DNA of 64,000 bases from Rossellomorea aquimaris (GTDB taxonomy: Bacteria > Bacillota > Bacilli > Bacillales > Bacillaceae_B), in NCBI RefSeq assembly GCF_008180865.1, contig NZ_VTEX01000002.1, positions 310,001-374,000 on the forward strand, read 5' to 3'. The translations under genes and the position numbers were made by a program. The notes under the pieces were generated by a model. It had not been told where the DNA came from. It was given only the letters and a program-made list of their open reading frames with translations, and did not search any database. Within the stretch, counting starts at the first letter, position 1. Each line of letters starts with the position of its first letter. Shown one piece after another: positions 31,713-51,177 of the stretch.

Positions 31713-32334
31713 GATCATCTCTTTCGAAAATTATTTCAGTCTCTTTATTAACTGGTATATCCAGCAAACTCCTTTGTTTATGCTTCTACATTTATGTGAA
31801 ACATCCTGCTATTTTTTATCTCTATTAACTGGAAGAAGAGTAGATATAAAAACCTCTTACATGTGCTCAAGAGGTACTGTTAACAGAAAGATGATCAAAA
31901 AATTCAGAAGTTTCCTTCAAGCACGATAAAGACGGAATTAAAATTTATATTAATATTTATAATACGAACAATCTTGCAAATGAAGGCGGCAATGCCGGAG
32001 TAGAACAAACCGCATCGGAAGGGTCGCAGAACCTGACTGGAAAAGATGGGGAGAATGCAAGCCAAGGCGGACAGATCGCAGATAAAGGTGGTCAAAATGC
32101 CAACCAGTTTGGACAGGTTGTTAGAGATGGCGGAGAGAATGCAATAGAAGATGCAGATAATGAGCCTGGCTAGTTAGAAAGAACGTATCCAGCTTTCGAT
32201 GTTTTATTGTGCCGCTTTTCTAATAATTAAGCATCCGTGTCGAATTCCCGTTAGACCTTTACATGCTTTGCCCATCCAGGTGCCCCATGCAAGTGGCTGA
32301 ATCGCTTCCCGTGAATAAAAAGAGACGGGGAATT
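31713..32334. other. Intergenic region holding a frameshifted small ORF
   Basis: About 600 bases between the M3 peptidase start and the next minus gene. It contains a small hairpin (ACCTCTT/AAGAGGT, 31852-31875) and the Asn/Gly-rich frame at 31891-32173. The rest shows no coding signal. Confidence 0.5.
31891..32173 (+). pseudogene. Asn/Gly/Gln-rich small ORF with a frameshift at a poly-A run
   Basis: From 31895 a frame stays open to the TAG at 32171 and encodes a regular low-complexity sequence (ANEGGNAG, GENASQGG, DKGGQNANQ, RDGGENAIED), but it has no start codon. The ATG at 31891 lies one base out of frame, separated by an A6 run at 31895-31900; removing one A would join them into a 92-residue ORF beginning MIKNSEVSFKHDKDGIKIYI. 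Either a recent frameshift or a slippage site explains this. The ribosome site (AGAAAG) is weak. Family unknown. Confidence 0.4.
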
Positions 32335-41318: not shown

Positions 41319-41462
41319 ATGAGAATCCTCCCATTCTATATATGAACCGGTTTTCACGACTTATGATCCACTTTTCAGATATATGATCCGGTTTCAGCCA
41401 TTTATGAACCGGAATTTTGATATATGATCCACTTTTTTCATTTTATAATCCGTTTGTCGAAA
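41319..41462. repeat. Degenerate direct-repeat array A, 20/21-bp step
   Basis: Seven units with core GA(T/A)CC whose CC-preceding bases fall at 41326, 41346, 41367, 41387, 41408, 41428 and 41449: spacing 20, 21, 20, 21, 20, 21. Most units start TATGATCC or TATGAACC. It ends in TGTCGAA (41455-41461), 20 bases from the stop codon of the GyrI-like gene. Arrays B and C share the design. Confidence 0.85.
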
Positions 41463-41482
41463 GTTGTATCATGGGAAGGGTC

Positions 41483-41929
41483 CTATACATAAATAGGTAA
41501 GTAAATCTCTACTTCTTCCTCACCAGTTTCCAATGGATGATAGGTCTCCACAATATAAGAATCCGGTTTCCTTTTATATCCCTGGTCATCCATCCACTTT
41601 AAAAGATCGTTATGAAGCTTGCCAATATGTCGAACGTTCCCTTTCGTCGTAACATACTCTTCGTCCAGTTCGATATATTCCATACCGACCGGAACGTTTG
41701 TAAGGGTTTCGTCCACCATAATCCCTACATAATAGATCCCGTCCAAATGATCCGTATCCCTCTTAGGTTCGTAGAGGGCGATTTCAGGACCATGATCGGA
41801 TTCGATTTCATGTAATCTCTCTAGAAAATGCTTGGCCCGTTTTGGTACCTCTGTGTTAAATTCAGTGAAGGCTCCTTCTCCTTTTAACCCAACTATTCGG
41901 AATGTCTTTTTCATTTTTTCAGCATTCAT
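41483..41929 (-). CDS. GyrI-like / AraC effector-binding domain protein
   Basis: A 148-residue single-domain protein of the GyrI-like small-molecule-binding family (also the effector domain of BmrR-type regulators): FRIVGLKGEGAFTEFN, YYVGIMVDE, PVGMEYIELDEEYVTTKGNVRHIGKLHNDLLKWM, VETYHPLETGEEEVEIYLPI. Stand-alone members bind or sequester hydrophobic compounds; some hydrolyse cyclopropanoids. AAAGGAGAG precedes the ATG. Array A follows its stop. Confidence 0.8.
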   Translation of the reverse strand: MNAEKMKKTFRIVGLKGEGAFTEFNTEVPKRAKHFLERLHEIESDHGPEIALYEPKRDTDHLDGIYYVGIMVDETLTNVPVGMEYIELDEEYVTTKGNVRHIGKLHNDLLKWMDDQGYKRKPDSYIVETYHPLETGEEEVEIYLPIYV

Positions 41930-41947
41930 AACAATCTCTCCTTTTGA

Positions 41948-42295
41948 TTAAGATAGTTTCCATGCCGGAATTAACGAATGGAAATCAAAGAAATAACTCA
42001 TCGGTATATGGATGACGGTGTATATGCCAAGAGTGAGCAAATACGTCAAAAACCATTGAGGAACCGATACTTGTAGGAATGAGTAAAGCAAGAACATCCC
42101 CACTGGAAATGGAACCAGTACGATCAACCACATCGGGCTTCCCAAAGCTACGGTCAATGCCCCAAGTGATACGACAGAAAAGCCGATGATCAATGCCTGC
42201 CAAAAGGGCAATCCATTTTTGAGAACGAAACTTGCGATGTAATAAGAAAGACCGTTCAAAGATACTGCCAGAAAAAAATCAAAAAGATATTTCAT
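41948..42295 (-). CDS. Four-helix membrane protein, unrecognised
   Basis: A 115-residue hydrophobic product with four helices, a GGGGGTC site and only 18 bases to the following GyrI-like gene, so they are probably cotranscribed. Family not recognised. Confidence 0.62.
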   Translation of the reverse strand: MKYLFDFFLAVSLNGLSYYIASFVLKNGLPFWQALIIGFSVVSLGALTVALGSPMWLIVLVPFPVGMFLLYSFLQVSVPQWFLTYLLTLGIYTVIHIPMSYFFDFHSLIPAWKLS

Positions 42296-42361
42296 TTTGA
42301 CCCCCTATTATAGTTTTACCTCTCAATATTTTAACATAATTTTCCTGATGCGATAATATAA

Positions 42362-42391
42362 AAAGCCCCCCACCTAAAAGTGAGAAGCTCA
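42362..42391 (-). terminator. Terminator of the MFS gene
   Basis: On the minus strand AGCTTCTCAC pairs with GTGGGGGGCT through several G-T pairs, followed by TTTTTATA. Confidence 0.6.
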
Positions 42392-42395
42392 TTCT

Positions 42396-43586
42396 TTACC
42401 TGATCCGTTGAATAAATCTCTGACCAACCAAATACACGCCTGCCAGCACGAAGAAAATCAGAAGCAGGCCAGCGAATCCGTCGGTAAACCCCGTTCGTTC
42501 AATGGCAAATCCGAATAACGGAAAGCTGATCATGATGACGAAGCTTTCCATTAATCCGATCAGCGAAAGGAAAGTAGACCTGATATTGCTCTGCAGAAAG
42601 TTTTGCACAAATGAGCTGAAGATTGGTTCGAACAGACTCAAGAGCTGTGCAAGGATCAGAAACGATATCAGGATCGCCCAGTCCGTGGCGAAGATGAACA
42701 GGATGAAAAAGAAGAGGAAAAGACCTAAGCCATAATATAAAATATTGAAGAACTTAAATCGCGCCTCCACCCTGTAAGCAATCTTCGCCATCACGACGCC
42801 AAGGAGCCCTTCAATTGTAAACACAGCTCCCACGACGACAGGCGAATAGCCTAATTGAATGAAGTATTCCTGTCCGTAGAACACTATGATCACCATGACT
42901 GCACTCGCTAAGATAAATAGCACAACAGGCTGGTGAATGACCGTGTTATTTCTCCAAACTGCCACCCCTAATTTAAATTGATGAACCCACTGGTTATACC
43001 ATCGTCCGCCGATATCCTCCGTCTTTTCACGTTCCGGTTCCTTCATGAAAAACAGTGGAATTACAGCAAGGACATAGGTGACGATGGTTGCACCATATAC
43101 CCATTCCCAGCTGATTTCTGCCATGAATCCCCCGAGGAATTTGGCAAGGCTCAAGGATAGGAGGGAAATGGCCGTCATGCTTCCGATTACCCTCGTATAA
43201 TCCTTCTCACTCTTTTCATTCTTCAACGTGTCATATGCAAACGCCTGCTCGGCACCGGAATGAAAGGTCACCATGAGACCCATGGATAGAAAGGCCAGGG
43301 TAAACATCGAAAACGTCCCGCTCATCAGCATGAAAAAGGCATAAAGGAGACTGAACACATTCCCGATCACCAGGCTGACCTTCCTCCCATACAAATCTGC
43401 GATCATCCCTGTCGGAACCTCAAACAGGACGATGGCCAAATGGAGAAACGCCTCCAATATGCCGATTTCACCGAAGGTCATCCCCTTATCTCCAAGGTAG
43501 ATGACCCACAAAGCCCGGTCAAAGAACAACTGGGCAAAAAAGAGATAAAAATAAAGCAGATATATATTGTTTCTTGTCTTAATCAT
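42396..43586 (-). CDS. MFS transporter
   Basis: A 396-residue major facilitator with about 12 helices. The cytoplasmic loop between helices 2 and 3 shows VPTGMIADLYGRKVSLVIGN, the family's GxLaDrxGrkxxl motif A. Similar proteins are annotated as multidrug or tetracycline-type exporters. It is monocistronic; the ATG follows GAGAGGACGAAATTAA. Substrate unknown. Confidence 0.88.
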   Translation of the reverse strand: MIKTRNNIYLLYFYLFFAQLFFDRALWVIYLGDKGMTFGEIGILEAFLHLAIVLFEVPTGMIADLYGRKVSLVIGNVFSLLYAFFMLMSGTFSMFTLAFLSMGLMVTFHSGAEQAFAYDTLKNEKSEKDYTRVIGSMTAISLLSLSLAKFLGGFMAEISWEWVYGATIVTYVLAVIPLFFMKEPEREKTEDIGGRWYNQWVHQFKLGVAVWRNNTVIHQPVVLFILASAVMVIIVFYGQEYFIQLGYSPVVVGAVFTIEGLLGVVMAKIAYRVEARFKFFNILYYGLGLFLFFFILFIFATDWAILISFLILAQLLSLFEPIFSSFVQNFLQSNIRSTFLSLIGLMESFVIMISFPLFGFAIERTGFTDGFAGLLLIFFVLAGVYLVGQRFIQRIR

Positions 43587-43625
43587 TTAATTTCGTCCTC
43601 TCATAAACATAAGGTTAATAGAAAA

Positions 43626-43733
43626 GCGGAGGCGGCTCGTTCAGAGGCGACAAGCATAAGATGAACATGCCGGAAAGGCGCTTTTTGCCTTTTTGGCATG
43701 TTTAACTTATGACCTCGAGCCTCTAGCCGCCGC
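43626..43733. repeat. 108-bp imperfect long hairpin element
   Basis: GGCGGCT, AGAGGC, CATAAG, AACATGCC and AAGGC on the left are matched in order by GCCTT, GGCATGTT, CTTATG, GCCTCT and AGCCGCC on the right, around a CTTTTT loop. It is GC-richer than its surroundings. Similar GCGGAGGCGGC-type intergenic hairpins recur in Bacillaceae genomes (recalled, not checked). Confidence 0.75.
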
Positions 43734-43741
43734 AGCTAGAT

Positions 43742-43773
43742 CAAAAAAAACCACAGGGAATCATTCCCCGTGG
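43742..43773 (-). terminator. Terminator of the 36-residue peptide gene
   Basis: On the minus strand CCACGGGGAAT pairs with ATTCCCTGTGG and is followed by eight T residues. Confidence 0.85.
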
Positions 43774-43820
43774 CTTTCGCTATTTTCAGGAAATCATACA
43801 TACGTTCACATTATTGAAAG

Positions 43821-43931
43821 TCAGCTAAAAAAGGACAGACTTCTCCCGAGGACAGCTGAAATTCCAAAAATAGACATCATGAAGACAAGATACTTTTTCT
43901 CAGCTTTGATGTCTACAGTGAACGTATGCAT
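43821..43931 (-). CDS. 36-residue single-helix membrane peptide, toxin-like
   Basis: The ATG at 43931 has a perfect AAGGAGGG site seven bases upstream, a promoter and a strong terminator, forming a complete unit of about 220 bases. The peptide has a charged N-terminus (MHTFTVDIKAEKKY) and one hydrophobic helix (LVFMMSIFGISAVLG). An 11-bp inverted repeat joins codons 2-5 with sequence just after the stop, so the start region could be sequestered in the mRNA. This resembles type I toxin mRNAs, but no antisense RNA promoter was identified. No family is recognised; it could also be a small membrane regulatory peptide. Confidence 0.6.
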   Translation of the reverse strand: MHTFTVDIKAEKKYLVFMMSIFGISAVLGRSLSFFS

Positions 43932-43966
43932 GAATTTTCCCTCCTTATTGTTTAAGATTCTTTTTT

Positions 43967-43995
43967 ATTATATAGTTCTTTCCGGTTCTGGACAA
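43967..43995 (-). promoter_or_regulatory. Promoter of the 36-residue peptide gene
   Basis: Minus-strand TTGTCC (43990-43995), 17 bases, TATAAT (43967-43972), 36 bases before the start codon. Confidence 0.65.
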
Positions 43996-44102
43996 GCAAT
44001 CCTTATACCGAGGTTGACCACGGATTCATTACTGAATAAAATAAATACATACTAATCTGGAGGTTTTTGTTTGCTAAACAATTGTTTATTACTGGGGTGA
44101 AA

Positions 44103-44134
44103 ACTTTCTTAATGACTCTTTTCATTAAGAAAGT
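44103..44134. promoter_or_regulatory. Perfect 12-bp inverted repeat upstream of the GNAT gene
   Basis: ACTTTCTTAATG and CATTAAGAAAGT flank an 8-base spacer ACTCTTTT. It lies 52 bases before the GNAT start, where an operator or leader hairpin would act. No T run on the plus strand follows, so termination is less likely. Confidence 0.5.
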
Positions 44135-44185
44135 ACCATTTATATTTGAACCCAACAACTTTTATTAAAGAATAGGAGTCTATAA

Positions 44186-44719
44186 ATGGATATCTTTATT
44201 AGACAAGAACGCCCTGAAGAATATAACACGACGGAAGAAATGATTAAAGAAGCATTTTCACATGAAGAGTACAGCGATAAGAAAGAGCATCTGCTAGTGA
44301 ATAACATCAGAAAATCAGATGCATTTATTCCTGAGCTTTCGTTGGTTGCCATCAATCAAAACCATGATGTGGCCGGTCACATCCTACTATCTAAAATCAC
44401 CATTGTCGAACATGATAAAGTGGCAGATTCTCTGGCACTCGCTCCCGTGTCTGTAGCACCCGCCTTTCAAAATAAGGGAATTGGAAGCCAATTGATCCGT
44501 GCAGCCCTGCAAAAGGCTGAAGAGATCGGTTATCATTCCGTGATTGTGTTAGGTCACAAAGACTATTATCCAAGGTTTGGCTTTAAGCAAGCGGCACTTT
44601 GGAATATCAAACCCCCGTTTGAAGTGCCTGATGAAGTTTTTATGGCTTTGGAATTGATGGAGCATTCCCTTAGGAATGTACAGGGTGTCGTGCGATATTC
44701 GAAAGCTTTTTCGAAATAA
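44186..44719 (+). CDS. GNAT-family N-acetyltransferase, YhbS-like
   Basis: A 177-residue GNAT: IRQERPEEYNTTEEMIKEAFSH opening, DVAGHILLSKITI, then LAPVSVAPAFQNKGIGSQLIRAALQKAEEIGYHSVIVLGHKDYYPRFGF with the QNKGIGS acetyl-CoA loop. The VLGHxxYYPRFGF ending is typical of YhbS-type proteins. Acceptor unknown. AGGAG precedes the ATG, and a strong terminator follows. Confidence 0.87.
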   Translation: MDIFIRQERPEEYNTTEEMIKEAFSHEEYSDKKEHLLVNNIRKSDAFIPELSLVAINQNHDVAGHILLSKITIVEHDKVADSLALAPVSVAPAFQNKGIGSQLIRAALQKAEEIGYHSVIVLGHKDYYPRFGFKQAALWNIKPPFEVPDEVFMALELMEHSLRNVQGVVRYSKAFSK

Positions 44720-44729
44720 GGTAGAAACA

Positions 44730-44766
44730 GGTTGTCCCGGGGGAATGCTGGGACGACCCTTTTTTA
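44730..44766 (+). terminator. Terminator of the GNAT gene
   Basis: GGTTGTCCC (44730-44738) pairs with GGGACGACC (44750-44758), followed by CTTTTTTAG. Confidence 0.8.
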
Positions 44767-45109
44767 GCTCTTCTCGTTTGAAAATAGGGCTTTCCCCGAT
44801 AACCTAGCCAAGTACGAAAAAAACCAACATATTCATCGCCAGTACGAGGAAAATCCTCATTTATTATCCCTTGACTTCTTTTGACTGATCAGGAAACTTC
44901 AGTAATTAGACCTCTTACAACCACTTTCAATCCGAAGTTGGAATAATTAATCCTGTTTCCGACTTATTAATCCTTATTTTTAATAAATCAATCCTGATTT
45001 AAAATAATTAATCCTTCATGTCGAATTTTCTTTTTCTGTAACCGAAATTCCCAGAGTAAAGTTTCAATGAAAATACCCGGATTACTTAATCCGGTATCAG
45101 ACATTCGCT
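44767..45109. other. Convergent intergenic region containing repeat array B
   Basis: About 340 bases between two convergent genes. Apart from array B at 44905-45030 nothing was recognised. Confidence 0.5.
44905..45030. repeat. Degenerate direct-repeat array B, 20/21-bp step
   Basis: Six units with core AATCC; the base before CC falls at 44910, 44931, 44951, 44971, 44992 and 45012 (steps 21, 20, 20, 21, 20). It ends in TGTCGAATTTTC (from 45019), the same end as array C, about 80 bases from the stop of the minus-strand methyltransferase-like gene. Confidence 0.85.
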
Positions 45110-45664
45110 TTATAGCTTTACAGCATCAATAATCAAAGAAGGAAAAGCCAGCCTCTCCCCCTGGTTTCTAGGATCAAATTTCTTAGAACGAAAAATCACT
45201 CCGTCAGATCCATCCCAATGATTTTGATGAAACGTTCCTTCTTCATCAAAATACTCATATAATGTCACTTCAAATCCCACCGTTTCAAACATTTTCGTCA
45301 ACGTATGATAATTGTGAACGATCTTATGACTGGCTGCCGGATGATCTTTTGGGCCTGGTCCTCCAACCTGCACAACCCGTTGATAAGACTCATCGGGGAA
45401 GTAGCCATCAGGGACGGCGCACCTAATATATCCGGCAGGCTTCAGGTATTTCATACATAATTTTGCAGCCTCTAGTCCTTCTTCGTATGTAAGGTGTTCC
45501 CAGATGTGTTCAGCCAAAAGAGCCTCTACAGAACTTTCATGGAACTTGTTTTCCCATGTACTTTCGTCTAATAAATTTAAATCCTCTTCCTGTGTATGGA
45601 TCCAGCCAGGATTATTCACATACTCTCCTGCACCGATTACGATTTTTATTTTATTAGAAGTCAT
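45110..45664 (-). CDS. SAM-dependent methyltransferase-like protein
   Basis: A 184-residue Rossmann-type protein of the predicted methyltransferase group COG4627: IVIGAGEYVNNPGWIHTQEEDLNLLD (glycine-rich SAM loop, short form), ALLAEHIWEHLTYEEGLEAAKLCMKYLKPAGYIRCAVPDG, and a C-terminal YEYFDEEGTFH segment. Substrate unknown; relatives often lie near sugar or glycosyl genes. GAGGTACTACTAA precedes the ATG. Confidence 0.78.
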   Translation of the reverse strand: MTSNKIKIVIGAGEYVNNPGWIHTQEEDLNLLDESTWENKFHESSVEALLAEHIWEHLTYEEGLEAAKLCMKYLKPAGYIRCAVPDGYFPDESYQRVVQVGGPGPKDHPAASHKIVHNYHTLTKMFETVGFEVTLYEYFDEEGTFHQNHWDGSDGVIFRSKKFDPRNQGERLAFPSLIIDAVKL

Positions 45665-45757
45665 TTAGTAGTACCTCACTTATTTTTATAGATAATGATG
45701 TCCTGTTAGATTAACTTACTGACATAAAAATTCATTTGGATAATTATACCACAAAAA

Positions 45758-45864
45758 AAGAGGACCTGATCCCTAACACGTTGATACTTGAACGTGTAAA
45801 AATCAGATCCCATTACTATACAATCAATTACTTTAACCAAGGGATGCACCGGGAAGGTCCTCTT
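45758..45864 (-). terminator. Long branched terminator of the deacetylase-DedA-glycosyltransferase operon
   Basis: On the minus strand AAGAGGACCT and AGGTCCTCTT close a region of about 107 bases and are followed by seven T residues. Inside, CTGAT/ATCAG and CACGTT/AACGTG form a second nested hairpin. Confidence 0.6.
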
Positions 45865-45908
45865 TCGTCGGAATTAACAGGACTTCCTTTGATCAATCTC
45901 TCTTCCCT

Positions 45909-47081
45909 TCAGCTCGAAAGAAAGACCCCGATATCCGCTTTTCCCTTGACTGATTTCACTTTGATCGTCTGGCGCGTCTCCTCCTGAATCTTTCGCAAAA
46001 TATCGGAGAAGCCGCCGGTAAGGGAGGATAAATAGTCTTCCATATTTTCTACTCTTTGTTGAATTTCCTTGTAATTATAAAGAATTTCCTTCAAAGAAGA
46101 GAAATCCTCTGTGTCTCTAATGTAGAAGACGAGATCATGTTCTACAAGATAATGTAAATTAAACTCTTCCTGCCCGGGAAGATAATCAAGGATGAACACA
46201 GGTATTTTTTTATGAAGGACCTCACTGATCGTGACTCCACCGGGTTTGGTAATGATACCATCCACTGCGTCATATAGAGCATTCAGTTCTTCCGGGTCCT
46301 GAATGTACATGTAGGGCGTAATATTCGGTTGATTGATAAGCGAACGATACAGCCTGTGATTATGACCGCATAATACGGAGAAATGGACATCCGGGTATCG
46401 GGAAAAGTCCTTAATGCCATTCTTCCACACACATAGTCCGCTATTCCCTCCCGCAACAAGGATATGTTTTCCCTTTTTGGAGCGGGGACTTTGAGACGAA
46501 TCCTTACTCTTAAATACGTCCGAAACGGGGATCCCGGTTTGATAGACACGATCCGCAGAAACGTTGTGATGCATGATCAATGTCTCCTTCACCTCTGCAG
46601 TCGGGACAAGGTGATAATCAATCTTGCCTGTTTCCCAAACACCGTTCACAAAGAAATCGGTATAAGCATTCATCGTTTTACAGGGAATGTCCCCCTCCCG
46701 TGACTTCAGCCTTCCGATCATTCTCGATGGAAAGGAATGGGTGCAAATCACCAGTGAAGGTTTTTCCTCTTCCACTACCTTCAGCACCTTCTTTTCAAAG
46801 TAGGTGGCAAACCGGGAAATGCTTCTTAAAAAAAAGCTCTGTTCTTTTTCTTTCATCATCACCTTTTGGTAAAAACCTTTATAGCTTTCCGGTGAAGTTC
46901 TGATCCATTTAAAATAAACGCCGGATATCATTTTTTCCAGAAGAGGATTCGAGAAAGACAGGAAATCAATGATCTTGATTTCAGCGTCCGGATAGTCATG
47001 TCTTATGCTGTCTTGTAGAACCTCGGCTACTTTCGTATGTCCGGTTGGGACACTGAACATCGATAGAATCACAATCTTCAT
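45909..47081 (-). CDS. GT28-family glycosyltransferase, MGDG-synthase/UgtP-like
   Basis: A 390-residue glycosyltransferase. The N-terminal MGDG_synth domain carries PTGHTKVAEVLQDSI (GxGH-type motif, here PTGH). The C-terminal GT28 domain has LVAGGNSGLCVW, the ITKPGGVTISEVLHKKIPVFILDYLPGQEEFN sugar-nucleotide motif. UgtP homologues move glucose or galactose from UDP-sugars onto diacylglycerol at the membrane face. It overlaps the DedA gene by four bases, so the operon ties glycolipid or wall-polymer synthesis to a DedA flippase-type protein and a deacetylase. Confidence 0.87.
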   Translation of the reverse strand: MKIVILSMFSVPTGHTKVAEVLQDSIRHDYPDAEIKIIDFLSFSNPLLEKMISGVYFKWIRTSPESYKGFYQKVMMKEKEQSFFLRSISRFATYFEKKVLKVVEEEKPSLVICTHSFPSRMIGRLKSREGDIPCKTMNAYTDFFVNGVWETGKIDYHLVPTAEVKETLIMHHNVSADRVYQTGIPVSDVFKSKDSSQSPRSKKGKHILVAGGNSGLCVWKNGIKDFSRYPDVHFSVLCGHNHRLYRSLINQPNITPYMYIQDPEELNALYDAVDGIITKPGGVTISEVLHKKIPVFILDYLPGQEEFNLHYLVEHDLVFYIRDTEDFSSLKEILYNYKEIQQRVENMEDYLSSLTGGFSDILRKIQEETRQTIKVKSVKGKADIGVFLSS

Positions 47082-47677
47082 TCCAAATACCTCTCTTTTT
47101 TCTTTTTAACGGATCCCCACACCGTTGTGAGGATAAAAATTAATAGTAATCCGACCCCTACGTATGGAACATAGGCTGGATTAATGGAAAGAGTGTTGCC
47201 AAGCCAGTATCCAAGGAAAATATACGAAATCGTCCAAATCGCCGATCCCGCCATGGTAAGGAAGAAAAAGGGCATGTAGCGTGTACCGAATATACCTGCT
47301 AGGTACGGGCTCAATTGTCGCAGTCCCGGCATAAACAGGCCAAACAGTAAAGTCTTGGTTGAGTGCATGGTAAAGAGCTGTTCATACTTAAGAACCTTTT
47401 CCTTAGATAACCCGATCCATCTTCCGTACCGATCAATAAGCGGCTGGCCAATGAATCTTCCACCATAGAACCCTGTAATCATTCCTGAATAGACACCTAG
47501 GAATGAACAGACCAATGCCAAAGAAAGCATTAACTGGCCTTTGGCTGCCAAGAGCCCCACTAAGAACAAAAGGGACTCTTCCGGGGCAGGTATGCCGACG
47601 ATCCCGAAGAATAGAAACAGGAAAATGATGAAATAACCGTAGCTTTGAATGTACTGGATAATCTCTTCACTGCCCAT
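47078..47677 (-). CDS. DedA-family membrane protein
   Basis: A 199-residue DedA protein with the family's re-entrant motif regions: GIPAPEESLLFLVGLLAAKG (the conserved Pro-Glu) and GRFIGQPLIDRYGRW, then FGLFMPGLRQLSPYLAGIFGTRYMPFFFLTMAGSAIWTISYIFLGYWLG with the conserved F-x-R-x2-P variant FMPGLRQLSP. DedA proteins such as UptA and PetA recycle undecaprenyl phosphate or phosphatidylethanolamine. It is coupled to both neighbours by overlaps, which suggests it flips the lipid carrier or product of the glycosyltransferase (inference). Confidence 0.9.
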   Translation of the reverse strand: MGSEEIIQYIQSYGYFIIFLFLFFGIVGIPAPEESLLFLVGLLAAKGQLMLSLALVCSFLGVYSGMITGFYGGRFIGQPLIDRYGRWIGLSKEKVLKYEQLFTMHSTKTLLFGLFMPGLRQLSPYLAGIFGTRYMPFFFLTMAGSAIWTISYIFLGYWLGNTLSINPAYVPYVGVGLLLIFILTTVWGSVKKKKERYLE

Positions 47678-48389
47678 GTACTGCCTGCTCCTTCGATACT
47701 GTGTTTGTTAGCAATGCGAATCGGATCTGTTTCTCTAACGCATCTTCAAGGAATGCATCTAATGACTCTATCATATAACCGGGAGCTTTCTCATCCGCCC
47801 CGAACGTCGTCCCACTGTCATGAAGAACGAAAATGGAACCGTCATGATCCGCCTCTTTCATTCGTTCAAGTAAGTCCCCACCGTTTTTCACCTTCCAATC
47901 CTGAAAAATGTGGGACCACAATACCACCTCATAGTCCCTGGATAAAAACAGGGTGGATAGATTAAAATGTCCCCACGGTGGACGATAGTAGATCGGTTTC
48001 TCATGGGTGACCTTCTCGATCACCATACGTGATTGCTCCAACTGCTTTTTCAAATGAAAAGGGGTTAAGAACCAGCTGGACACATGGGTATAATGATGAA
48101 TCCCGATCGTATGCCCCTCCCTTTTCATCCGTTTCAAAAGTTCAGGATATTTCTCCACCTTGCTTCCGACCACGAAAAAAGTAGCCTTAACCCCGTGTTT
48201 ATTGAGGACATCGAGTAGTTGACCGGTATACAGGGGATCCGGTCCATCGTCAAACGTCAATGCAATCGCACCCGGAACATTCACCCTTCTCGTAATACGG
48301 TCATTCTTTTTTCGTATATAAAACGTGCTGATGACGGAATAGACCGAGTACATCAGCACGACCATTAATGTGATATAGATCCACTTCAT
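47667..48389 (-). CDS. Membrane-anchored polysaccharide deacetylase (NodB domain)
   Basis: A 240-residue protein with an N-terminal signal anchor (about residues 3-22) and a carbohydrate esterase 4 domain: motif 1 LTFDDGPDP, motif 2 HHYTHVSS (HxxxH), motif 3 RPPWGHF, motif 4 WSHIFQDWK, motif 5 FVLHDS. It removes acetyl groups from N-acetylglucosamine polymers outside the membrane. The ATG at 48389 follows GGAG. It overlaps the DedA gene by 11 bases and heads the operon deacetylase-dedA-glycosyltransferase. Confidence 0.88.
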   Translation of the reverse strand: MKWIYITLMVVLMYSVYSVISTFYIRKKNDRITRRVNVPGAIALTFDDGPDPLYTGQLLDVLNKHGVKATFFVVGSKVEKYPELLKRMKREGHTIGIHHYTHVSSWFLTPFHLKKQLEQSRMVIEKVTHEKPIYYRPPWGHFNLSTLFLSRDYEVVLWSHIFQDWKVKNGGDLLERMKEADHDGSIFVLHDSGTTFGADEKAPGYMIESLDAFLEDALEKQIRFALLTNTVSKEQAVHGQ

Positions 48390-48605
48390 CGTGTACAACT
48401 CCAACATAATTTTCATTAAAAGTGCATGCTTATGATTGCGACTCTATTCCTAAAGTCTCCATTCATCATAAAGTGAACCGGTTTTTATATCAAGGCTTTC
48501 AAGTTAGATGACTTGATGAGGCAATATGGGACTAAGTACTTTATACTGTAATGGATGAATGAGTGAAAAAGGGGTATCATGTGGAGGGTAAGTCCGGAAA
48601 CTAAA

Positions 48606-48626
48606 AAAAGAGCAGCAGAAGCCACT
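48606..48626 (-). terminator. Terminator of the GlpQ-like gene
   Basis: On the minus strand GAGTGGC pairs with GCTGCTC (two G-T pairs), followed by seven T residues. Confidence 0.55.
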
Positions 48627-48643
48627 CCCTTTTCACAAGACTA

Positions 48644-49483
48644 TTAGTTTCCAGGATCTACATAATCCGGATAATCCGTAATGATCGCATCAACCTTCAT
48701 GTCGAAAAGAAAGTCTGCCGCTTCCCGACTGCGTACCGTCCATGAGCCGATCTGCATCCCCTGGGAGTGGACTTCATTCACGACATCTTCTGTCACGATT
48801 CCATAGCTTGGGTTGAACCACTCCGCATAGGTTGATATTTCTTTTAACGCTGCCTCTGTTGTAAGGGCACGGTTAGAAGTTAATACTCCGACCGGAACCT
48901 GAGGAAGCAGCTCGTCCATTTTTTTCATCGAGTCAAAGTTAAACGATTGAAGAATGATTTTTTCATTTTGGGGCTTGTCGAGATTTCGTTCACTTAACGC
49001 TTCAGCCACTTGTTCCTCAATACCAGGGTAAAGCTCTGGAGCCTTTAATTCGATTAAGATTCCCACTTTTCCATGGTAACGATCCAGAATCTCCTCAAAG
49101 GTCGGAATCGGTTCTCCTGCAAACTCTTCTCCCTTCCAACTACCGGCATCAAGAATGCGAAGCTGTTCAAGGGTTAAGTCCCCGACTTTCCCTGTTCCAT
49201 CTGTTGTACGATCCACCGTCGTATCATGGATGACGACCAATTCACCGTCTTTGCTTCTCTGTACATCGATTTCAATGTAATCCGCCTTCATATCAACCGC
49301 CAAATCAAAACCGGCGATCGTATTTTCAGGTGCATAACCTGCTGCCCCCCGGTGTGCTACATTATCCACTTGCTTTCTTTCCCCTGTTGTTGGTTCTTCT
49401 GCAAACGCCTGACTGAACGGGCTGAATAACAATGAAAATGCAACCCCTGTACCGATTAGTAATTTCTTATTCAACTTCTTCAT
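48644..49483 (-). CDS. glpQ: Secreted glycerophosphodiester phosphodiesterase
   Basis: A 279-residue GDPD protein. The signal peptide (about residues 1-28) ends in SQAFA. The mature enzyme has HRGAAGYAPENT with the first catalytic histidine, the metal glutamates in YIEIDVQRSKDGELVVIHDTTVDRTT with the second histidine, and ILIELKAP for the third metal ligand. It splits glycerophosphodiesters, or wall teichoic acid from the end, into glycerol-3-phosphate and an alcohol; similar B. subtilis enzymes are induced by phosphate limitation. It is monocistronic, with array C in the intergenic region upstream. Confidence 0.92.
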   Translation of the reverse strand: MKKLNKKLLIGTGVAFSLLFSPFSQAFAEEPTTGERKQVDNVAHRGAAGYAPENTIAGFDLAVDMKADYIEIDVQRSKDGELVVIHDTTVDRTTDGTGKVGDLTLEQLRILDAGSWKGEEFAGEPIPTFEEILDRYHGKVGILIELKAPELYPGIEEQVAEALSERNLDKPQNEKIILQSFNFDSMKKMDELLPQVPVGVLTSNRALTTEAALKEISTYAEWFNPSYGIVTEDVVNEVHSQGMQIGSWTVRSREAADFLFDMKVDAIITDYPDYVDPGN

Positions 49484-49908
49484 CTCCAATCCTGAATATG
49501 TATTTCTACTTTATTTTAGGAAAGGGATGTTGAGTTGATATGTAGATAACAATACAGCTTAATATAGATTGTGTTAACGAAATTCGACCTTTTTTCTTAC
49601 GATTTTTTACAAATCTACTGAACCGGGATGAGATATTGAGACATTTTACTTATAAAGTAGTGGATTGATCGAGGTTCAGGAATGAAATGATCAGAATAAT
49701 TTGAGCTTATTAAGAATTACTCCTGTTTGAACCACTTTAAATCCTGAATGGGAATAATCAATCCTGTTTGAGAAATATCGCTCCTAATTTCAAATAATTG
49801 ATCCTCCTTGTCGAATTTTCTTGATTTGAAATACCAAATTTTCAATCAACTACTAGGCCTTCCCCTTCCATGTACGAAGAACCAGACCCAATATAATAAA
49901 ATCTTTAT
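49484..49908. other. Intergenic region containing repeat array C
   Basis: About 425 bases between glpQ and the MFS gene. It should hold the glpQ promoter, which I could not place. Array C occupies 49716-49822, the rest is featureless AT-rich sequence. Confidence 0.5.
49716..49822. repeat. Degenerate direct-repeat array C, 20/21-bp step
   Basis: Five units whose TCC cores fall at 49721, 49742, 49762, 49782 and 49802 (steps 21, 20, 20, 20), ending in TGTCGAATTTTC (from 49809). It shares ACCACTTT before its second unit with array B. It lies about 90 bases from the stop codon of the minus-strand MFS gene. Confidence 0.85.
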
Positions 49909-51177
49909 TTATCCATCACAGACCTTATTTTTTATGACAGACTCTTCCTTCCCTCCATTTCTCAAAGCCACCTTTGAAAAGAAGATCCCCAGGACGACAA
50001 GCCCCAAAAACCCGATTCCCATCGCCAGTCCGCCAATGATGTTCCCAACAATCAAACCTGCTGCGCCGATCATTTTTCCGACTTGGAACACCAATCCATT
50101 CATGGCCATATAGGCTCCCCGTCTGCTGTCATCCACGATATCGGCGAGGAGCGACTGGCGTGTCGGGACATAAAGCAATTCGCCGATGGTCAAGACGACA
50201 ACAGAAAGGAAAAGGGTGAGAAAATCATTACTGAAGGCCATGAAGAAATAGCCCATTCCGAAGAGGATGAATCCCGTGTACATGATAGGTTCCTCTTTCT
50301 TTCCGGTGATCCATTTACCGGCAGCTGCCGTGAATAAAACGATCATCAGTGTGTTGACAACGGTCAGTAAGCTCAATAATCGTATTCCGTCCATATCGAA
50401 TGATAATAAGTTGAATAGTTGTATGGTTTGGGGGATGATTTCCTCCTCAAGTCTCACTGAAATGAAATTATTACGTTGAAACTCAATCGATAGAATCGCG
50501 ATTCCACCAAAGGTAAAAGCCATAAACGTCCAGTCTTTCATGACCAGTCCGTAGCTCTTTAAGAGAGGCTTGATTCCATAGGTCCCTTGTCCTTTTCCAC
50601 TCTTGATTTCATACGTATCAATGATTAATGCTGCCGTCATCCAGAGGGTCACAATACCCATCAGGAGAAGAACCGCAATCAGTTCGAAGAAATACTGTTC
50701 AAAGAACCAGCCTCCGATCATCAGCCCGATCATGATGGATAAGTTCACAGCCCAATAATTGACCGAGTACATAAATGCCCTTGTTTCCTTCGTGCTGACA
50801 TCGATCAGCATGGCTTCGGATGCAGGATTGACCATCCCGCCTGAGACGCCGATTACGAGCAACATGATAAAGGTGATCCAAGGCGATGTAAAGATAGGTG
50901 AGTTGACCGCAAGCAATCCGGCAAATGCCCCGACCTTCATGACTTCACCAGCAACCATCAACTGTTTCCTGCCAATGATATCAGCGAGATACCCTCCATA
51001 AAGTCCAGCGATAAACTGAACCGCTACTTGAATGAGCAGAAGAATCCCTGCAACGGATGCATTGATCTCCCTAGTAAAATAAATGGCCATGAATGGGAAA
51101 ACGGCTGAGCCCACTACCCGGCTTAAAAATGACGTATAAATTCGCACTTTGATATTTGGGTGTAAAGTTGAAAACAT
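49909..51177 (-). CDS. MFS transporter paired with an SgrR-type regulator
   Basis: A 422-residue MFS protein with about 12 helices and motif A-like GGYLADIIGRKQLMVAGE. It resembles the MdtH/YttB-type drug exporters. The divergent neighbour is an SgrR-type regulator fused to a peptide-binding domain, a common pairing that suggests the regulator controls this transporter in response to its ligand. The start follows AGAGGAGATGATAC. Confidence 0.87.
   Translation of the reverse strand: MFSTLHPNIKVRIYTSFLSRVVGSAVFPFMAIYFTREINASVAGILLLIQVAVQFIAGLYGGYLADIIGRKQLMVAGEVMKVGAFAGLLAVNSPIFTSPWITFIMLLVIGVSGGMVNPASEAMLIDVSTKETRAFMYSVNYWAVNLSIMIGLMIGGWFFEQYFFELIAVLLLMGIVTLWMTAALIIDTYEIKSGKGQGTYGIKPLLKSYGLVMKDWTFMAFTFGGIAILSIEFQRNNFISVRLEEEIIPQTIQLFNLLSFDMDGIRLLSLLTVVNTLMIVLFTAAAGKWITGKKEEPIMYTGFILFGMGYFFMAFSNDFLTLFLSVVVLTIGELLYVPTRQSLLADIVDDSRRGAYMAMNGLVFQVGKMIGAAGLIVGNIIGGLAMGIGFLGLVVLGIFFSKVALRNGGKEESVIKNKVCDG

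Follow-up and report, generated by a model that had tools for sequence, protein, structure and literature searches.

Two-turn-phased direct-repeat arrays form a dispersed family in Rossellomorea and may be platforms for a DNA-binding protein

A 64,000-nucleotide stretch of the Rossellomorea aquimaris genome (contig NZ_VTEX01000002.1, positions 310,001 to 374,000; hereafter the window) carries arrays of degenerate direct repeats whose cores follow one another at 20 or 21 base pairs (bp) and which close on a common end motif, TGTCGAA. These arrays are members of a family that is dispersed in Rossellomorea with fixed steps and the end motif. Their units are constrained and in register, their cores fall into dialects, and their loci are kept across species. 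The explanation that we favor, and consider reasonably probable, is that each array serves a putative sequence-specific DNA-binding protein as a platform for cooperative binding in helical phase.

The first-pass annotation of the window, which was made from its sequence, had described three arrays (A, B, and C), and all three were re-derived with the steps and the TGTCGAA end that it gave. The arrays and their end motifs, with a fourth and poorer array, are listed here in window coordinates.

41319..41461, + strand: Array A, seven cores (AATCC first, TATGAWCC next, AATCC last; TATGAnCC dialect), core starts 41324, 41344, 41365, 41385, 41406, 41426, and 41447, steps 20,21,20,21,20,21.
41455..41461, + strand: end motif TGTCGAA of Array A; the next letters are AGTTG and not TTTTCTT.
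44904..45018, + strand: Array B, six cores (AGACC first, xATCC after), core starts 44908, 44929, 44949, 44969, 44990, and 45010, steps 21,20,20,21,20.
45019..45032, + strand: end motif TGTCGAATTTTCTT of Array B, with TGTCGAA starting at 45019.
49714..49808, + strand: Array C, five cores, core starts (picked by eye from listed candidate positions) 49719, 49740, 49760, 49780, and 49800, steps 21,20,20,20.
49809..49822, + strand: end motif TGTCGAATTTTCTT of Array C, with TGTCGAA starting at 49809.
32162..32246, + strand: fourth array, short and degenerate, about three units (TATCC, GTGCC, AAGCA) with steps of 23 and 20, ending in TGTCGAATTC.

With the 5-mer core left free, dinucleotide shuffles (1000 per array) matched the observed chain length 0 times for Array A, 8 times for Array B, and once for Array C, and Array B taken alone would be a weak case. 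The reality of the arrays is settled by the recurrence of family copies throughout the window's genome (G000, a 4.74-megabase assembly in 17 contigs), where AATTNATCCTNNNTGTCGAATTTTCTT, which combines the last unit and the end motif, had 21 matches with up to three mismatches and its backwards control had none. A template-free scan for chains of at least five units with steps of 10 to 45 placed 20 loci at 20/21 and 11 at 19/20, with single loci at 24/25, 25/26, and 40/41; the 537 kilobases (kb) scanned were stretches chosen for holding arrays, so the scan informs on step and not on frequency. One Markov control sequence scanned in the same way contained zero chains. Among 66 non-redundant arrays (44 of class 1 and 22 of class 2, the two main core dialects described below), 337 steps averaged 20.29 bp (238 of 20, 94 of 21, three of 22, and two of 19) with a parser restricted to 19-22. 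When this restriction was lifted, the spacing of exact successive cores was 20 or 21 in 146 of 187 class 1 pairs and 65 of 84 class 2 pairs. Autocorrelation maxima lie at 20/21, 40/41, and 60/61, and there is no 10-bp peak.

The repeat unit is asymmetric, and each array sets several direct repeats about two helical turns apart. The claim that all cores face the same side of the helix at two turns holds roughly and not exactly, as the mean step at 10.5 bp per turn rotates each unit by about -25 degrees. Regularly bent DNA, which had been offered as one reason for the phasing, received little support: curvature of the 66 arrays, computed from dinucleotide wedge values, was slightly above that of shuffles (mean z 0.53, sd 1.03; seven arrays >2), and the autocorrelation lacks the 10-bp peak. 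A strong intrinsic bend was rejected, the curvature excess being small and below what phased tracts would give. An RNA role, which the annotation had also allowed, found no support and was likewise rejected. Single-sequence folding of 20 elements was close to shuffle level on both strands (z 0.25 and 0.20), with z < -2 on the minus strand in one of the 20, and the window and three other loci had no Rfam match at the gathering threshold. RNAalifold returned zero pairs for the alignment and likewise for all 60 shuffles, and it is hence uninformative.

A genome-wide search for further copies extended the three-array family of the first-pass annotation across the genus, with its fixed steps and shared end motif. 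In 150 genomes, a looser pattern of last unit and end motif (up to two mismatches) matched 20 of the 36 Rossellomorea genomes and 12 of the 114 genomes outside the genus; ten of those 12 were inspected, and none had an array at the match. A sequence-only profile built from 28 arrays matched 26 of the 36 Rossellomorea genomes (E ≤0.01), 25 of them with 9-70 matches, a count that takes in split arrays and some weak matches, and one with a single marginal match. In the window this profile matched Array A (G000:C10:351352-351461, window 41352-41461) and the fourth array (G000:C10:342162-342246, E 9e-7).

The element is larger than its units. An upstream module around ATTGTCTnTTTTAGCTGG occurs in 22 copies, with both main dialects represented, and 20 non-redundant module-bearing copies yielded a 247-column consensus that runs from the module through the units to TGTCGAATTTTCTTTA; no inverted termini of the kind that MITEs carry were seen in it by eye. 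Other copies, including Arrays B and C, lack the ATTGTCTnTTTTAGCTGG module by eye. In the main array types, the terminus extends to TGTCGAATTTTCTTTA. In 41 of 44 class 1 arrays the C of the last core lies 6 bp ahead of the end motif, and in 20 of 22 class 2 arrays 5 or 6 bp ahead. Units are position-specific across loci, which suggests that entire arrays derive from a single ancestor by copying.

The two main core dialects are TNATCC (class 1) and TC[AG]TGC (class 2). Further core types, distinguished by eye, are TACnAGCC, ATTGCGCC, TTCAAGCC, TATGAnCC, and ATCRACCGTT. Of 37 loci inspected, two (L159 and L160) lie off-center because of a contig end, and no array is seen in L185, L188, or L192. 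In TATGAnCC arrays, the type of Array A, TGTCGAA ends most of the copies inspected and the letters beyond it vary; in the ATCRACCGTT copies inspected, the array is not followed by TGTCGAA. Exact pairs of ATCRACCGTT units were found in 9 of 36 Rossellomorea genomes and in none of the 114 others. Spacers specific to each unit position are common to class 1 and class 2 (the diagonal match was the best of 120 permutations, five units), as is a 21-bp step from unit 5 to unit 6 (31 of 37 class 1 and 15 of 18 class 2 arrays). The shared spacers and the shared place of this step suggest that an ancestral array switched its cores jointly.

At five orthologous loci, with the arrays in register, cores of the form xTCC occur in 27 of 30 units in G000 and in 18 of 18 units in genome G016 (three loci). 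At the same five loci, 34 of 36 units in genome G025 (six arrays) carry TGC/AGC cores and none carries xTCC, and the G025 arrays have the orientation found in G000 and the same or nearly the same terminus. Flank identity at these loci is 84-96% for G016 and 71-90% for G025. A sixth orthologous locus was aligned with its G025 array unparsed and was excluded from the counts. In G000 and G016, the closer pair, spacers are most alike at the same locus (identity 0.655 vs. 0.561 between loci; three loci, rank 1 of 6).

In ten orthologous array pairs of G000 and G016, with 50 units set by fixed steps and blind to core quality, 185 of 200 core positions (92.5%) were identical, compared with 174 of 200 in the AT block and 317 of 450 (70%) between cores; flanks of the orthologous arrays were identical at 2240 of 3039 positions (74%). 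Fisher's test of core against inter-core positions gave p 4e-11, which is indicative because the cells are not independent. A core-guided parse of 58 units gave 91% for cores, 87% for the AT block, and 68% between cores, with flanks at 74%. Some orthologs differ in step length (20 vs. 21). Each unit looks constrained in the manner of a protein site, and the core constraint and core dialects support the earlier, iteron-like suggestion that a single protein face makes repeated contact.

An asymmetric site of about 11 bp selected in every unit, a phase near two turns, and cores that switch jointly are what a row of protein monomers would yield. We infer that one protein molecule would read one such site per unit, an AT-rich block followed by ATCC or its dialect equivalent. 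The molecules would lie side by side about every two turns, probably with cooperativity, in a one-sided and slowly winding row of five to seven, with the fixed terminus TGTCGAATTTTCTTTA as a further site that would cap this row or set its position. We favor a role in architecture or insulation over the control of single promoters, because the arrays are intergenic in all orientations and profile matches fall mostly in the origin-proximal half of three complete genomes.

The origin tally merged profile matches within 5 kb and covered four genomes, with rounded lengths for G025 and G011. Clusters lying within a quarter genome of dnaA numbered 23 of 26 in G016, 16 of 21 in G032, and 16 of 19 in G025; the G016 and G032 counts take profile matches without sorting by dialect. 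Gene context was derived from script-called open frames for 42 arrays, which remained from the 66 after 14 were removed as same locus and 10 for a missing flank or neighbor. Convergent, tandem, and divergent gaps held 12, 24, and 6 of them (27, 87, and 34 among background gaps), a weak avoidance of divergent promoters, and three arrays overlap an open frame >120 codons. The 3' placement reported in the first-pass annotation persists as a weak tendency (26 of 42 after de-duplication). A strong facing of the end motif toward gene 3' ends, seen in a first count of 73 arrays, was rejected as inflated by tandem and orthologous copies.

Within the window, Array B is flanked by the 3' ends of a convergent gene pair (44186-44719, + strand, and 45110-45664, - strand), and G016 and G032 carry orthologous arrays. 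Array C lies between a GDPD gene (48644-49489, - strand), whose start faces it, and an MFS gene (49909-51177, - strand), whose end does. Ten neighbor proteins were compared with Pfam; nine belong to acetyltransferase, MFS, GDPD, deacetylase, and other families, and one had no match. Another intergenic repeat, GAAAAGCGGAGGCGGCTCGTTCAGAGGCGACAAG, is present as a single copy at 43620-43740 and as a tandem duplicate in the G032 ortholog. Elsewhere in G000, a motif ending in TAATGTCGAATTTTGTT stands upstream of a gene judged by eye to encode a LysM protein (L032 at about 804, - strand; G000:C14 at about 342800), and similar motifs recur in several Rossellomorea genomes away from arrays. Repeats of the GGGACAGG(T/C)(A/C)CC type occur near arrays or motif matches in several genomes (L033, L061, L166, L170).

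Iterons of theta plasmids are asymmetric direct repeats, several in a row and each about two turns long, with no dyad and with presumed monomer binding on one helix face. The arrays resemble them in having several asymmetric direct repeats about two turns apart, and differ in being chromosomal, with up to dozens of copies per genome; no replication-initiator gene was found among the ten window neighbors scanned against Pfam. The DNA uptake sequence of Neisseriaceae (PMC3630211) likewise has a short conserved core with species dialects, but it consists of single short words in thousands of copies instead of phased arrays with a separate terminus; the 26 positive genomes here have 1-70 array-profile matches, with words outside arrays uncounted. 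The bcr1 and other stem-loop repeats (PMC2267715) are also group-restricted and dispersed, with a length of about 70-250 bp, whereas the arrays lack a stable fold and contain phased units. A stem-loop repeat of the REP/bcr1 type was rejected, as single-sequence folding of 20 elements gave no conserved stem-loop. A CRISPR array was also rejected on repeat structure, since the units are degenerate and the spacers recur by unit position across arrays instead of being unrelated.

The annotation's statement that no named element has this design agrees with searches of viral contigs, plasmids, and literature, which found none either. Five patterns run on viral contigs gave 0, 0, 3, 3, and 3 stretches, the first of them being an exact scan for the last-unit and end pattern. 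On these contigs, phage origin was rejected because the nine stretches are not arrays: three share one 18-bp tandem repeat, and the rest are isolated pairs. Plasmid origin was rejected after blastn of Array B against 72,556 plasmid records returned two weak, unrelated matches. No description of the arrays was found in the open literature, where mostly narrow word combinations were searched, which is weak evidence of absence.

Similar arrays occur beyond the genus. Among 159 genomes of the order, searched with stricter filters than the genus (profile E ≤1e-4), 14 matched, six of them Rossellomorea and eight from other genera (one genome each from 8 of 86). In 20 stretches from these eight genomes, the strongest lag among 12-31 was 20 or 21 in all, for a profile that was trained on 20/21-bp arrays and favors that step. 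The signal is weak in G115, which leaves seven non-genus genomes with 20- or 21-bp arrays. Their cores differ (AATAATCGAGCA, AATAATTCAACCCG, AATAATTAAGCC, AATAATTGAGCG, TATGAGCG, ATTATCAATCT), TGTCGAA is present in none of the 20 stretches on either strand, and some stretches fall within open frames as long as 190 codons, so not all need be intergenic. Arrays in one of the genomes are much longer. At L315 (G136:C4:190500-193500), in a genome of another family, a long array of 20-bp AATAATCGAGCA units exceeds the Rossellomorea array length. The non-genus arrays may be homologous to those of Rossellomorea or convergent with them. At L303 and L311, in two non-Rossellomorea genomes, two different array dialects stand within a few hundred bases.

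Several observations count against a protein platform. No binding protein was found, and no partner-gene search across genomes was made. In eleven of the 36 Rossellomorea genomes the profile matches nowhere, or once and marginally, and the system is therefore dispensable. The end motif (up to two mismatches) had 100 matches in those 11 genomes vs. 136 for the reversed control; 30 of the 100 were inspected without finding a clear array, and two one-mismatch motifs, in G009 and G010, could be array remnants. G011, where the four arrays inspected belong to the TATGAnCC type, has no origin bias (8 of 17 clusters). In one G016 ortholog a deletion has removed the array and left GTCGAATTTTCTTTA. The terminus is invariant in 28 aligned arrays, for which it was the selection criterion. 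Spacer identity between G000 and G025 is 0.593 at the same locus vs. 0.595 between loci, so the expectation of locus-by-locus change, spacers most alike at the same locus, was rejected. With spacers no closer at the same locus, whole arrays may therefore be rewritten from other copies, by conversion instead of base-by-base change; saturation would look alike.

The arrays might instead be a dispersed repeat, once mobile or self-copying, that has no host role and is homogenized by slippage and conversion, and whose phasing is inherited and not used. We regard this as unlikely, with a chance that is still appreciable. It would account for the G000-G025 spacers and for the upstream module and terminus common to copies of both dialects, and it suits the turnover of the family: whole elements stand in tandem at spacings of about 365-420 bp, their copy number at orthologous loci differs between species (4 vs. 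2, 4 vs. 1), and both unit duplication and array collapse are seen. It fits poorly with cores that are constrained relative to spacers, with orthologous loci retained at the flank identities given above, and with unit-specific spacers that persist though whole-unit homogenization would erase them. One empty site, the only one compared, has ragged ends and no clean target-site duplication. The terminus raises another explanation, that it is a genuine Spo0A box and that the arrays serve sporulation, for example in handling the origin region when Spo0A~P appears, with units binding a partner recruited by Spo0A. TGTCGAA with A/T flanks exactly matches the published core 0A box (PMC3485338), which is suggestive of a candidate Spo0A site, and profile matches are origin-proximal in three genomes. 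This account is nevertheless improbable, as the array terminus is longer and fixed, running well beyond the 0A core to TTTTCTTTA, and the arrays are not tied to promoters. The 11 array-poor genomes show no excess of the motif, and the 20 array stretches of other genera lack TGTCGAA.

Regulators of the LytTR and AraC types bind, on one helix face, direct repeats that are asymmetric and spaced by two turns, usually as a pair. Ordinary operators of such a factor, regulating their neighbors, would suit the asymmetry and phasing of the units, but this explanation seems slightly less probable again: five to seven units exceed the usual pair, window neighbors are functionally unrelated, and only 6 of the 42 de-duplicated arrays lie between divergent genes, compared with 12 between convergent ones. 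The LytTR direct repeats in PMC8515946 are three turns apart.

Tentatively, several families of the order may carry an unrecognized chromosome-architecture or identity system, built from rows of two-turn-phased sites and a reader protein family of species-shifting specificity, in which the cores of a genome shift to a new dialect and loci, register, and terminus are retained. If the arrays are neutral, they represent an unusual form of repeat evolution that is locked to helical pitch. If they are protein platforms, dozens of sites are unannotated in some genomes, and the dialects are a record of how a DNA-binding protein and its sites evolved together. The bias toward the origin seen in three genomes would connect the arrays with chromosome organization.

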